Assembly (NCBI GenBank): GCA_029959285.1
Contig: JASCOE010000008.1
Span: 62,001-126,000, forward strand
Direction: 5' to 3'
From: Flavobacteriaceae bacterium PS02337
GTDB taxonomy: Bacteria > Bacteroidota > Bacteroidia > Flavobacteriales > Flavobacteriaceae
DNA length: 64,000 nt
Shown: one piece after another, positions 42,706 to 61,918 of the stretch
Layout: the number at the start of each line of letters is the position of its first letter
How positions within the stretch are numbered: position 1 is the first letter of the stretch
The notes under the pieces: model-generated
Told to the model about the DNA's origin: nothing
The model's input: the letters and a program-made list of their open reading frames with translations, nothing else
The model's database searches: none
Position numbers and translations under genes: made by a program

Positions 42706-42713
42706 TATTTTTG
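42706..42713 (+). promoter_or_regulatory. Promoter -7 box for the radical SAM gene
   Basis: TATTTTTG matches TAnnTTTG. It covers the TTG that a longest-frame call would take as start (42711), so the start at 42732 is better supported. Confidence 0.6.
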
Positions 42714-42731
42714 CAAAAAAATAATTCCCTT

Positions 42732-44957
42732 TTGAAAACGAAACTTTTTGTAATTACGCCTCCATTTACACAACTGAATACACCGTATCCGGCGACGGCG
42801 TATATAAAAGGTTTTCTAAACACAAAAAATATCGAATCGGTTCAGGCCGATTTGGGTATTGATGTCATTTTGGAATTGTTTTCGAAAAAAGGATTAAATA
42901 ATTTGTTTCAAGTTTCAAGTTTCAGGTTTCAAGTTTCAGGTTCCGAAATCTCCGATAACTCCAAAAGAATTTTTGCTTTACAAGACGAATATACTAGAAC
43001 AATCGATTCTGTAATTCAGTTTTTACAAGGAAAAAATCCAACCTTGGCGTTACAGATTTGTCAAGAAGATTTCTTGCCAGAAGCTTCTCGTTTTGCGCAA
43101 CTAGAAGAACTCGATTGGGCTTTTGGAACAATGGGAACACAAGACAAAGCAAAGCATTTAGCAACTTTATATCTCGAAGATATTTCGGATTTTATTGTAG
43201 AATGTGTTGACGAAAATTTTGGCTTCAGTCGATATGCCGAACGTTTAGGGCGAAGCGCGAATTCTTTTGATGAATTATATAATGAACTTCAAAAAGAACC
43301 AACTTATATCGATTCGATTTTAATTTCGATTTTGAAAGCTAAAATTGAAGCCGTAAAACCAACCTTATTTTTAATTTCGGTTCCTTTTCCTGGAAATTTA
43401 TATAGTGCATTTCGATCTGCTCAATGGGTAAAACAAAATTATCCTGAAATTAAAATATCAATGGGCGGCGGTTTTCCGAATACAGAATTACGTTCGCTTT
43501 CGGATACACGTGTTTTTGAGTTTTTCGATTTTATTACTTTGGATGACGGAGAAGTTCCAATTGAAGAATTGATTTTTAATTTAGAAAACCCAGATTCTGT
43601 CCCTTCGAGCGAAGTCGAGAAGCGTTATAAAAGAACTTTTCTTTTAGAAAATGGAGAAGTAGTTTATAAAAACAATTCTTTAAAACACGACTACAAACAA
43701 GCCTACGTCGGAACGCCAGATTATTCAGATTTGCCTTTGGATAAATATATTTCGGTAATCGAAATTGTAAATCCTATGCATAGAATGTGGAGCGACGGAC
43801 GTTGGAATAAACTCACAATGGCGCACGGCTGTTACTGGGGAAAATGTACTTTTTGTGATATTTCTTTAGATTATATAAAAGTTTACGAACCTGTTGCTGC
43901 CAGTCTTTTATGCGATAGAATAGAAGAATTAATCGAAAAAACTGGTCAAAACGGATTTCATTTTGTTGATGAAGCAGCGCCACCTGCCTTAATGCGTGCT
44001 TTGGCACTCGAAATTTTAAAAAGAAAACTTGCTGTAACGTGGTGGACAAACATTCGATTTGAAAAAAGTTTCTCCAAAGATTTGTGTTTGTTGCTAAAAG
44101 CTTCTGGATGTATCGCAGTTTCTGGCGGTTTAGAAGTTGCTTCAGATCGATTATTGAAATTAATTGACAAAGGTGTTACGGTAGAACAAGTTGCGAAAGT
44201 AACTCGAAATTTTACCGAAGCGGGAATTATGGTGCATGCGTATTTAATGTACGGATATCCAACACAAACCATTCAGGAAACAATTGACAGTTTAGAAATG
44301 GTTCGCCAATTGTTTGAAGCGGGAGTTTTACAATCTGGATTTTGGCATCAATTTGCATTGACGGCTCATAGTCCAGTTGGCTTGTATCCGGAACAATTTG
44401 GCGTAACGAAAAAAACAGAAGCGATTGGAACTTTCGCTAATAATGATATTGAATACACTGATTCTACAGGAATTAACCACGATAAATTTAGTTTCGGATT
44501 AAAGAAATCGCTTTTCAATTTTATGCACGGAATCTGTTTTGATTACGAACTGCAAGATTGGTTCGATTTTAAAATTCCGAAAACTAAAATTCATCCCGAT
44601 TTTATTTTCAATGCTTTAGAAGAGCAAAACGATTTCAATACAAAACCAAATGCAAAAGTGGTTTGGCTTGGTGGAAAACCTTCGTCAGAAATCTTCACAA
44701 AATCAAAAAAAGGAAGAAGCTGGGAAATGATGGCTTTGACTTTTCATGACAAAAAAGAAAGTTTTGACATTCAAACTAGTCAGCAAGAAGGTGAGTGGTT
44801 AGTTTCCATTTTGTCGAAAATAGCCGTTTCGGGTTCTAAAAATTATACTTTTCAAGAAGTAAAAAATGATTTCGAATCTGAATTAGAAGATTTCGAATTG
44901 TTTTGGTATTCTAAACCAATCAATACATTGCGTGAATTTGGATTATTAGTTTTATAA
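42732..44957 (+). CDS. B12-binding-like radical SAM protein
   Basis: The 741-residue protein has an N-terminal cobalamin-binding-like fold (LFVITPPFTQLNTPYPATAY) without the DxHxxG motif, and a radical SAM domain with HGCYWGKCTFCDIS (Cys367, 372, 375; CX4CX2C) and HFVDEAAPPALMRA, FEKSFSKDLCLLLKASGC and LEVASDRLLKLI. It probably methylates or otherwise modifies an unactivated carbon. Repeat DNA lies inside the gene (42906-42940, 43599-43622), both in frame. The TTG at 42732 is taken as start because the -7 box overlaps the upstream TTG. Confidence 0.88.
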   Translation: MKTKLFVITPPFTQLNTPYPATAYIKGFLNTKNIESVQADLGIDVILELFSKKGLNNLFQVSSFRFQVSGSEISDNSKRIFALQDEYTRTIDSVIQFLQGKNPTLALQICQEDFLPEASRFAQLEELDWAFGTMGTQDKAKHLATLYLEDISDFIVECVDENFGFSRYAERLGRSANSFDELYNELQKEPTYIDSILISILKAKIEAVKPTLFLISVPFPGNLYSAFRSAQWVKQNYPEIKISMGGGFPNTELRSLSDTRVFEFFDFITLDDGEVPIEELIFNLENPDSVPSSEVEKRYKRTFLLENGEVVYKNNSLKHDYKQAYVGTPDYSDLPLDKYISVIEIVNPMHRMWSDGRWNKLTMAHGCYWGKCTFCDISLDYIKVYEPVAASLLCDRIEELIEKTGQNGFHFVDEAAPPALMRALALEILKRKLAVTWWTNIRFEKSFSKDLCLLLKASGCIAVSGGLEVASDRLLKLIDKGVTVEQVAKVTRNFTEAGIMVHAYLMYGYPTQTIQETIDSLEMVRQLFEAGVLQSGFWHQFALTAHSPVGLYPEQFGVTKKTEAIGTFANNDIEYTDSTGINHDKFSFGLKKSLFNFMHGICFDYELQDWFDFKIPKTKIHPDFIFNALEEQNDFNTKPNAKVVWLGGKPSSEIFTKSKKGRSWEMMALTFHDKKESFDIQTSQQEGEWLVSILSKIAVSGSKNYTFQEVKNDFESELEDFELFWYSKPINTLREFGLLVL
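42906..42940. repeat. Tandem 7-mer array inside the radical SAM gene
   Basis: Five 7-base units TTTCAAG, TTTCAAG, TTTCAGG, TTTCAAG, TTTCAGG, followed by the diverged TTCCGAA. They encode FQVSSFRFQVSG in frame, which looks foreign to the domain. Confidence 0.8.
43599..43622. repeat. Short palindrome inside the radical SAM gene
   Basis: GTCCCTTCGAGCGAAGTCGA contains the CTTCGA/TCGAAG-type palindromic core that is common in intergenic Bacteroidota repeats. It encodes VPSSEVEKR in frame, between beta strands. Confidence 0.6.
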
Positions 44958-45817: not shown

Positions 45818-46123
45818 ATGCATCTACAAGAGGGTTTTCATACTTATTTCATTTATATTCTTACAAATAAAGCGAAATCTGTTTTTTATGTTGGAGTTAC
45901 AAATAATTTGAAGAAAAGAATAATGAAGCATAAAGACAATGTTTTGCTGGAAAATAAAACGTTTGCTTCTAAATATAGAGTTGAATTTTTACTTTATTAT
46001 GAAAAATTTACTTGGATTCAAGAAGCAATTACGAGGGAGAAGGAGATCAAAGGCTGGAGAAGAGAGAAGAAAATAGAATTAATTAAAACTATGAATCCTG
46101 AATTGGAATTTTTGAAGTATTAA
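45818..46123 (+). CDS. GIY-YIG endonuclease-domain protein
   Basis: The 101-residue protein has YFIYILTNKAKSVFYVGVTN (GIY and YIG elements), LKKRIMKHK with the catalytic Arg, TFASKYRVEFLLYYE, and ITREKEIKGWRREKKIELI. This is the stand-alone UvrC-like single-domain form that is abundant in Flavobacterium. Such proteins are likely DNA nickases. Three tandem 149-bp palindromic repeats start 18 bases after its stop. No methylase or reverse transcriptase is near, so restriction is unlikely, and a link to the repeats is the best contextual clue. Confidence 0.93.
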   Translation: MHLQEGFHTYFIYILTNKAKSVFYVGVTNNLKKRIMKHKDNVLLENKTFASKYRVEFLLYYEKFTWIQEAITREKEIKGWRREKKIELIKTMNPELEFLKY

Positions 46124-46140
46124 TTGAAAACAAAGCCTTT

Positions 46141-46575
46141 CAAGTCTAGTTTGTCATTCCGACGAAGGAGGAATCTCCGAAAGTAGCTCGTCAAAGATTG
46201 GAATTACTTTATGGAATATTGCCGCGGAGATTCCTCCTTCGTCGGAATGACAAATCTTTGCGGTTACTATATGTTTAATTACTTAATTTCAAGTCTAGTT
46301 TGTCATTCCGAGGAACGAGGAATCTCCAGAAGTAGCTCGTCAAAGATTGGAATTACTTTATGGAATATTGTCGCGGAGATTCCTCCTTCGTCGGAATGAT
46401 AAATCTTTGCGTTTAGTATATGTTTAATTACTTAATTTCAAGTCTAGTTTGTCATTCCGACGAAGGAGGAATCTCCGAAAGTAGTTCGCTAAAGATTGGA
46501 ATTACTTTATGGAATATTGCCGCGGAGATTCCTCCTTCGTCGGAATGACAAATCTTTGTGGTTACGGAATGTTTT
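46141..46575. repeat. Three tandem 149-bp palindromic repeats
   Basis: Units begin at 46141, 46290 and 46439 with CAAGTCTAG and have an exact period of 149. The third is cut short near 46575. Each contains a hairpin: in unit 1, 30-base arms 46150-46179 and 46225-46254 are perfect complements (core GTCATTCCGACGAAGGAGG) around a 45-base loop. In unit 2 the left arm reads GTCATTCCGAGGAACGAGG and pairs with mismatches. Short frames at 46211-46399 and 46452-46655 are by-products. Confidence 0.93.
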
Positions 46576-46593
46576 AAGTAAAAATGTTCTGAT

Positions 46594-47280
46594 TTAGCCA
46601 ATAGAAAACCTAAAACCAATTCCATGAAGGTTTTCAATAGAAATTCCTTCTTCATTTGCTAAAATTTTTCGCAGACGCGAAATAAAAACATCCAGACTTC
46701 TTCCCATAAAATAATCGTCTGTTCCCCATAAAGAAGTTAAAATTTGTTCTCTTTTTAAAACAGAATTTTTATGATCGAGGAACAACTTCAATAATTCAGC
46801 TTCTCGTTGTGTAAGTCCAACTTTTTCTTCATTAGTAAAAAGAATAAAATTTTTAGTGTCAAACTGATATTTTCCAACTTCGTAAATTGTTTTTGCTGTT
46901 GGAATATTTTTCTGCGAACGCTTTAAGAAAATTTCAATTTTCAAAAGTAATTCTTCAATACTGAAAGGTTTTACCAAATAATCATCAGCGCCCAAACGCA
47001 AACCTTTAATTCGGTCTTCTTTTAAAGTTTTTGCCGAAAGAAAAATAATTGGAACTTCTATATCAATTTTTCTAATAGCTTCTGCCAATTCAAAACCATC
47101 CATTTTTGGCATCATAATATCAAAAATGCAAATATCAAATTCCTCTTCTTCAAAAATTTTCAACGCCGATTTTCCATCAGAACAATGAATAACTTCGTAG
47201 TTATTTTGCTCCAAATTGTCTTTGGTTAGAAACGCTAGAGTTTCATCGTCTTCGGCATAAAGTATTTTGAAATTTCTCAT
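46594..47280 (-). CDS. OmpR-type response regulator
   Basis: The 228-residue protein has a receiver domain with the phospho-acceptor Asp54 in CIFDIMMPKMDGFELA and the switch LSAKTLKED, then a winged-helix DNA-binding domain (VGLTQREAELLKLFLDHKNS, SLDVFISRLRKIL). It is encoded four bases overlapping its kinase (start 47280, kinase stop 47277). The combination resembles the Bacteroidota RprX/RprY pair, but targets are unknown. Confidence 0.95.
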   Translation of the reverse strand: MRNFKILYAEDDETLAFLTKDNLEQNNYEVIHCSDGKSALKIFEEEEFDICIFDIMMPKMDGFELAEAIRKIDIEVPIIFLSAKTLKEDRIKGLRLGADDYLVKPFSIEELLLKIEIFLKRSQKNIPTAKTIYEVGKYQFDTKNFILFTNEEKVGLTQREAELLKLFLDHKNSVLKREQILTSLWGTDDYFMGRSLDVFISRLRKILANEEGISIENLHGIGFRFSIG

Positions 47281-54159: not shown

Positions 54160-54175
54160 TTTTAGATTTTAGAAT

Positions 54176-54249
54176 GTCATTGCGAGGAACGAAGCAATCA
54201 CATTTGCTGAATCAAATTGTAGTGAGATTGCTTCGTTCATCGCAATAAC
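54176..54249. repeat. GTCATTGCGAGGAACGAAGC-type REP
   Basis: GTCATTGCGAGGAACGAAGC (54176-54195) is followed by AATCACA and 30 bases later by the complementary GAGATTGCTTCGTTCATCGC-AATAAC with a few changes. The family recurs at 61824-61908 and shares its start (GTCATT.CGAGGAACGA) with unit 2 of the array at 46.3 kb. Confidence 0.75.
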
Positions 54250-54261
54250 AGAGATTACTGT

Positions 54262-61807: not shown

Positions 61808-61823
61808 AATTTATTTTTTATTA

Positions 61824-61908
61824 GTCATTGCGAGGAACGAAGCAATCTCACTTAGTATTTATCAACAAATCCTACTTTTAGTGTGGTTGCTTCGTTCCTC
61901 GCAATGAC
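61824..61908. repeat. GTCATTGCGAGGAACGAAGC-type REP
   Basis: GTCATTGCGAGGAACGAAGC (61824-61843) pairs perfectly with GCTTCGTTCCTCGCAATGAC (61889-61908), with 45 bases between. Same family as 54176-54249. Confidence 0.88.
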
Positions 61909-61918
61909 ATATATTGTG

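Follow-up and report, generated by a model that had tools for sequence, protein, structure and literature searches.

Ssn, a family of site-specific single-stranded DNA (ssDNA) nucleases in the GIY-YIG superfamily, was reportedly described in Nature Communications in 2025; its target in Neisseria is said to be a sequence repeated in the genome, and its homologues, which number in the thousands, to differ in specificity in vitro, and Ssn/NTS is said to modulate transformation in Neisseria. REPINs are inverted doublets of REP sequences, and in the accessible text of PMC3116915 tandem REPIN clusters lie next to each RAYT. A further class of repeats, the CGTC REPs, was reported in 2013 to 'apparently lack a dedicated transposase'; their members include dRS3 from Neisseria and the Rickettsia repeats RPE-4 and RPE-6, and in the species given in the accessible text they flank no tyrosine transposase gene (PMC3733652). 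Words beginning with GIY are absent from the main text of that report.

Here we analyse a 64,000-nucleotide stretch of DNA from Flavobacteriaceae bacterium PS02337 (the window), in which a one-domain GIY-YIG nuclease gene is followed by hairpin repeats. The repeat units of its genus are like CGTC REPs in their (C/T)GTC tag, AT-starting stem, short loop and mostly head-to-head dimers, and CGTC REPs span several phyla including Bacteroidetes, as far as the accessible text of PMC3733652 describes them. That text defines a stem of 8–9 bp and a loop of 4–5 nt, from which the genus units depart with 5+1 bp, a conserved GA..GA mismatch core and a 3-nt loop; in the 15 unit types described below the unpaired tag and AT-starting stem agree with the definition, whereas stem and loop length do not. 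With REPINs, RAYTs and REPtrons, as presented in the accessible parts of PMC3116915 and PMC8266576, the system shares inverted doublet hairpins and one repeat family per enzyme, and the tandem REPIN clusters beside RAYTs (PMC3116915) are a close parallel to the array beside the nuclease. REPINs and RAYTs combine a GTAG tag with an HuH/Y1 transposase, whereas here a (C/T)GTC tag (TGTC in the genus) goes with a GIY-YIG nuclease.

Results

The window protein consists of a GIY-YIG domain and little beyond, scoring 57.1 bits in a profile search with PF01541 against a curated cut-off of 22.6 (Table 1). Y13, Y24, G26, R34, H38 and E74, which we take to be the catalytic residues of the domain, are invariant in an alignment of 14 proteins. 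The closest solved chains belong to UPF0213 one-domain GIY-YIG proteins (PDB 1zg2 and 1ywl; E 2.5e-7 and 1.6e-6), which are annotated as hypothetical, and the search of solved structures returned nothing useful besides them.

Table 1 Features of the window and stem families beside the short GIY-YIG genes of the same genome.
Feature	Position	Strand	Details
One-domain GIY-YIG nuclease gene	45818..46123	+	101 aa, no internal stop; Y13, Y24, R34, H38, E74 present
Gene and array segment	45809..46587		Absent as a block in G005, G042, G055; present, with other array length, in G013, G036, G049
Array copy 1	46138..46286		149 bp; arms 46150-46179 (+) and 46225-46254 (-), 30/30 complementary, 45 nt between
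Array copy 2	46287..46435		Arms 46299-46327 and 46375-46403; heterotypic, left GAGGAACGA core, right GACGAAGGA core
Array copy 3	46436..46584		Arms 46448-46477 and 46523-46552, 30/30 complementary, 45 nt between
Dispersed type III doublet	54175..54250		Unit 54175-54199 (+), decayed partner 54226-54250 (-)
Dispersed type III doublet	61823..61909		Units 61823-61847 (+) and 61885-61909 (-)
C55 (window) nuclease			Stem family GTCATTCCGACGAAGGAGGAATC
C44 nuclease			Stem family GTCATCCTGAGGGACGAAGGATC
C56 nuclease			Stem family GTCATTGCGAGGAACGAAGCAATC (type III), one arm each side of the gene
C53 nuclease			Stem family TGTCTTCCTGAGCGAAGTCGAAG, pairs on both sides

The first-pass annotation had read the locus as an intact one-domain GIY-YIG gene followed by three tandem 149-bp palindromic repeats, and the ORF, the PF01541 match, a repeat search (copies 1, 2 and 3 are 100, 95 and 91% identical to the reference copy) and TRF (score 772) all show this to be real. 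Its 30-bp stem and 45-base loop describe copies 1 and 3 but not copy 2, whose 29-nt arms are 90% complementary with 47 nt between them. The gap of 18 bases that it placed after the gene is, in the register used by the repeat search, 14 bases from stop codon to repeat and 26 to the first arm, where a tandem repeat can be divided into copies at any point; and its array end at 46575 falls short, as copy 3 runs to 46584. Every 149-bp copy holds two 26-nt units in inverse orientation, each tagged TTGTCA and reading TTGTCATTCCGACGAAGGAGGAATCT or close to it, and as ssDNA the stretch 46150-46254 folds with −38.1 kcal/mol (z −10.7). We infer that the array is a later tandem amplification of a doublet and its flank. 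It sits between convergent genes, the nuclease gene (+) and one at 46594-47280 (−), and the nuclease gene has units downstream only and none upstream, which is not the gene-inside-doublet form described below. A run of GTTTCAGGTTTCAA heptads was also seen at window positions 42905-42942, within a 748-aa ORF (42711-44957).

The genome to which the window belongs (5.7 Mb in 56 contigs, the window being on contig C55) contains seven PF01541 matches, four in short frames (98–125 aa) and three in long ones (462, 471 and 624 aa). Palindromic units adjoin all four short genes found, with a different stem family at each (Table 1); the strict unit detector finds them at two of the four, and those at the C53 and C56 genes come from a repeat search and a looser pattern. 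At the three long genes, with only the upstream side covered for the 624-aa gene (L035), no such units were found by pattern, repeat search or unit detector. The first-pass annotation had also related scattered elements at 54.18 and 61.82 kb to the stem of the array. They are built from the same kind of unit but belong to another stem family, the type III family that flanks the C56 nuclease.

With up to three mismatches, the 26-mer unit occurs at 64 places in the genome, and its reversed pattern at none. All six pairs are kept in 63 of the 64 units, and changes from unit to unit are nearly all paired: CC..GG, TC..GA or CT..AG in the outer stem and C..G or G..C beside the loop. Every pair is likewise kept across 15 unit types of equal length, hand-picked from lists (alignment A3), with 22 double-change cells against 7.3 in shuffles; most of these types came from a detector requiring a 5-bp stem, which biases the outer pairs, whereas their inner pair and the pattern-based set of 64 units are free of that bias. 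The TGTC tag is found in all 15 types, followed by AT in 14 and as TGTCAC in one, and the stem comprises 5 bp, GA/GA mismatches and 1 bp around a 3-nt loop. Because the conserved GA..GA core is without dyad symmetry, the unit reads as a putative single-strand hairpin made up of a TGTC tag, a stem, tandem G.A mismatches, one pair and a GAA-type loop. This asymmetry of the core, together with covariation of the pairs around it inside one unit, led us to reject a dyad in double-stranded DNA bound by a dimeric protein. In DNA, both GA mismatches and CGAAG loops have unusually high stability. In ViennaRNA, a lone isolated unit folds no better than shuffles (z −0.09), which counts against the hairpin. 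At L071, L199, L204 and L239, unit arms are broken up by inserted short palindromes of another kind, which have a GAGCGATAGCGAA-like core.

A match to the window protein is present in 69 of the 81 genomes of the genus. We sampled 100 stretches of up to 20 kb around matches, hand-chosen from at least about 155, together with 20 kb of the window; 96 of these 101 stretches held 102 one-domain GIY-YIG ORFs, and five had no one-domain match. Controls were other non-overlapping ORFs of at least 80 aa from the same stretches, and leaving out five GIY-YIG ORFs and those control ORFs that lay within 400 bp of a stretch end gave 97 genes and 1360 controls. A tagged GA-core hairpin lay within 300 bp of 50 of the 97 GIY-YIG genes but only 120 of the 1360 controls (OR 11, p 3e-24), so the enrichment beside one-domain GIY-YIG genes that the first-pass annotation had anticipated is there. 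When the GA core was not demanded the numbers were 61/97 and 294/1360, and nine permuted tags then gave 9–21 of 97 genes and 11–25% of controls. Long inverted repeats regardless of tag were found within 300 bp of 44 of 97 genes and 236 of 1360 controls (p 1.4e-9). The control genes and permuted tags rule out chance adjacency. At 36 of the 97 genes even the loosest tag definition found no tagged hairpin within 300 bp, which counts against a strict link.

The 64 unit matches in the window's own genome include 28 doublets, dispersed and inverted so as to form one long hairpin, as in REPINs; in 26 of the 28 both arms belong to one type, where shuffles average 9.1 such doublets and reach 19 at most, and four that were folded gave −32.4 to −38.1 kcal/mol (z −9.5 to −11.6). 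The inner halves of 12 gene-less doublets lie near TCGCAAGTAACTCTACAAAGATTG on the left and TCGCAAGAAGCTCCACAAAGAAAG, as reverse complement, on the right, and their outer flanks differ by inspection. The same inner half recurs on the gene side of 21 of 43 gene-facing units (those with no other unit between them and the gene) and on the outer side of none; it is missing in the remaining 22, a point against the relation drawn here. At five loci (L104, L111, L114, L120 and L136) both sides of the gene match, with about 50 bp in common per side, and there the gene-bearing form is a doublet holding the predicted nuclease gene in its loop. GA units stand on both sides within 300 bp at 22 genes, most commonly (11) with their tags outward, a layout seen in 0 of 3 two-sided controls; without the GA demand it was found at 13 of 28 two-sided GIY-YIG genes and 3 of 19 two-sided control genes. 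Judged from sequence, gene-bearing and gene-less doublets look like autonomous and miniature forms of an element.

Among the 50 of 97 nucleases that have a GA-type unit, nuclease identity and unit similarity in pairs from different genomes correlate with a Spearman coefficient of 0.60, which none of 2000 permutations reached (maximum 0.42); when paralogues were shuffled within one genome, 56 of 2000 shuffles reached it. When units were compared with that of the nearest nuclease elsewhere, in a different genome, the match was closer than the paralogues' average in 22 of 28 cases, worse in five and tied in one (sign test p 0.0008).

We then counted units of two families against nuclease types set by identity thresholds of our own, at least 57% for type I and at least 60% for type III, the latter set including broken or partial copies in G015, G017 and G028. 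The median number of type III units is 12 across the 20 genomes that have a type III nuclease and 1 across the 61 that do not (p 2e-8, and 0.001 or less in each of three genome-size classes); for type I units it is 31 across the 30 genomes that have a type I nuclease and 0 across the 51 that do not (p 1.5e-12). A joint model of genome size and both nucleases gave, for type III units, t 7.3 for nuclease III and 1.9 for nuclease I and, for type I units, t 6.9 for size, 5.0 for nuclease I and −0.5 for nuclease III; the pattern holds when Y1 transposases are added (Y1 term t 2.3–2.7, size term for type I 5.9). On these counts, in which kinship among genomes is only partly controlled, the two repeat families co-occur with their own predicted nuclease types, with a double dissociation. 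Against this, type I counts follow genome size, and above 4.5 Mb the comparison for them is 21 against 1; before correction, type III units are also more frequent where a type I nuclease is present (p 0.001); and there are exceptions with type III units but no type III nuclease (G048 with 19, G032 with 12) or type I units but no type I nuclease (G068 with 21, G026 and G038 with 16 each). In the 12 of 81 genomes that lack a match to the window protein, the two counted families number 0–5 copies; abundance of the repeats where such genes are missing, which the first-pass annotation had named as an outcome that would undo its reading, was not found.

Orthologous sites differ in what they carry. 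Where the gene and array segment is absent (Table 1), the junction reads AGAATTGT joined to GATTTA; the left edge of the absent segment is not a unit, which counts against the element. At the window locus G007, G044, G045, G046, G052 and G058 have 69–205 bases and no gene, and G074 has a window-type gene in the same neighbourhood. Besides the window's own genome, four of the 18 relatives searched (G003, G007, G044 and G058) carry the C56 element. In G052 (L213) the units at this site are kept and the nuclease gene is missing, apparently a deletion derivative; the other 13 relatives have no gene there, G049 among them having a doublet of another family. By inspection, the 54.2-kb spot is occupied in all six relatives compared by units from other families or by what is left of such units. 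At the site matching 61.8 kb of the window, G036 and G042 (L383 and L387) have another palindromic family, of AGGAGCTAATCCCGCTATC ... TATCGGGGCTAGG type, instead of the type III doublet. On a larger scale, nuclease pairs 70–85% identical have no common neighbouring gene in 281 of 335 cases, and pairs more than 85% identical have at least two common neighbours in 58 of 70, the pairs in this comparison not being independent. By this measure, predicted nuclease loci are stable for a while and differently placed over longer times. No target duplications or exact doublet junctions could be read at these sites, where flanks are about 80–90% identical, because the nearest genomes are about 10% divergent.

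Finally, we scanned genome_contigs with 11 genus proteins and kept the best 80 of at least 556 relatives, which come from proteobacteria, Fibrobacter, Nitrospirae, Chloroflexi, Leptospiraceae, Patescibacteria and Neisseria gonorrhoeae among others. A GTC-tagged hairpin of at least 6 bp lay within 350 bp at 65 of these best 80 loci, against 188 of 736 pseudo-sites in the same loci; the other 15 had none within that distance. Permuted tags were also high, CGT (36/80) because it overlaps CGTC, and CTG (43/80), for which we have no explanation. The outward-tag inverted layout was found at 32 of the 46 loci that have units on both sides (p 3e-10 for an expectation of one in four). Units of CGTCATTCCCGCGAAAGCGGGAATC type recur among the best 80 loci, where by inspection many units have a longer stem than those of the genus. 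The gonococcal homologue (L317), which may be the published Ssn, is flanked by CGTCATTCCCGCGAAAGCGGGAATC and close variants; it shares 37% identity with the window protein across 82 aa (E 3e-19) and 53% with the genus protein of L168. In putative viral contigs of IMG/VR (L341-L376), which may be virus or host DNA, GTC-tagged hairpins lay within 350 bp in 33 of 36 GIY-YIG loci, with 12 outward and 8 inward layouts and no control set; one of 37 loci was left out for its 31-residue match.

Discussion

The gene and the repeats are probably two forms of one element family, REPtron-like, in which a GIY-YIG nuclease takes the place of the Y1 tyrosine transposase. The best-supported part of this reading is that the nuclease would recognise its own hairpin family, probably in ssDNA, and that gene-bearing and gene-less doublets would make up one family. 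The unit would be a hairpin of about 25 nt in single-stranded DNA with an unpaired (T/C)GTC tag, and two inverted units with a short, partly conserved spacer would give a REPIN-like doublet about 105 nt long; the gene-bearing form would have the nuclease gene between its two units, each nuclease type having its own stem family. The nuclease would bind and cut its hairpin in ssDNA, as Ssn is said to do, and this cutting may be what causes the repeats to spread. A folded doublet might be released and repaired into new sites, or repair might turn a gene-less doublet into a gene-bearing one, in a homing-like way. To our knowledge GIY-YIG enzymes do not join strands, so insertion would need host repair. 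More tentatively, and with somewhat less than even confidence, we propose a second, independent REPtron class across the bacterial tree, in which GIY-YIG nucleases would fill the vacant role of mover for the CGTC REP superfamily, the doublets with a gene being autonomous and the gene-less ones miniatures, with mobility coming from ssDNA hairpin cutting and host repair and no transposase.

Several features of the loci can be read differently. The nuclease might mark the genome as Ssn is said to do, tuning DNA uptake or recombination by site-specific ssDNA cutting at repeats that are spread by other means. The gonococcal homologue, flanked by its units and related to the window and L168 proteins, fits this, as does the reported modulation of Neisseria transformation by Ssn/NTS; gene-bearing elements with both ends as in gene-less doublets, and the presence or absence of gene and repeats at one site, are left unexplained. 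We regard it as unlikely that the nuclease only marks and does not move, and marking and mobility can both hold. The central position of the gene in the doublet at five loci, with about 50 bp of common sequence on each side, and the gene-less and gene-bearing states of one site (G052 versus G058 and others) would also be expected if the gene parasitised pre-existing doublets, cutting gene-less ones so that repair copied it into the middle, while doublets spread by an unrelated route. But the G052 state looks like a deletion, and because its units are intact the gene-bearing form would stay cleavable unless a close doublet fold is needed; we find this homing scheme very improbable.

Nor does it seem credible, beyond a slim chance, that RAYT/IS200-type Y1 transposases move the repeats while GIY-YIG genes hitchhike in repeat-rich spacers. 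A Y1 match does occur in 57 of the 81 genus genomes, and unit counts correlate weakly with Y1 copy number (t 2.3–2.7). The 24 genomes without a Y1 match, however, include G045 (59 type I units), G046 (28 type I) and G076 (16 type III); GA-core units were found at none of eight Y1 loci, the best of many, with 3.3–3.4 kb at each; and CGTC repeats flank no tyrosine transposase gene in the species that the accessible text of PMC3733652 gives. On the strength of these unit-rich genomes and empty loci we rejected Y1 transposases as movers. The palindromes could in principle be ordinary RNA hairpins, bidirectional terminators or mRNA stabilisers unrelated to the nuclease, as the array does lie between convergent genes and its long stems would fold in RNA too. 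Such hairpins fail to predict the enrichment at one gene family, the matching of nuclease and stem or the gene inside the doublet; with enrichment and type matching found, terminators alone were rejected, and we attach next to no probability to this account.

The reading as a nuclease-bearing element family places the system among known ones as follows. With Ssn, as reported, it has in common a one-domain GIY-YIG protein, a homologue detected in Neisseria and a repeated genomic target, whereas the gene-in-doublet element, miniature derivatives and site turnover lie outside what we recall of Ssn. The putative system operates in the manner of REPIN/RAYT without belonging to it, because tag and enzyme differ: the tag is TGTC, the associated gene encodes a GIY-YIG protein and eight Y1 loci are without units. 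Its probable place is with CGTC REPs and Ssn, even if stems in the genus depart in length from the 2013 definition. The analogy to RAYTs and REPs with a nuclease instead, drawn in the first-pass annotation, has stood up, given the unit enrichment at one-domain genes and with neither of the outcomes that would have spoken against it being found. That annotation's suggestion of an undescribed system is doubtful, for Ssn has reportedly been published. CGTC REPs, too, have been published, in a report whose accessible text describes them (PMC3733652). Among the papers listed by our literature search, which took in a minority of subscription papers, none described the pairing of GIY-YIG nucleases with hairpin repeats.

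The pairing offers a candidate mover for a repeat class reported in 2013 without an enzyme, as the accessible text of PMC3733652 has it, and makes the question of the CGTC REP enzyme directly testable. Many nucleases gain a predicted target, and matched nuclease and hairpin pairs might serve as single-strand cutting reagents. The pairing also suggests that a nuclease need not have strand-transfer chemistry to sustain a repeat family.
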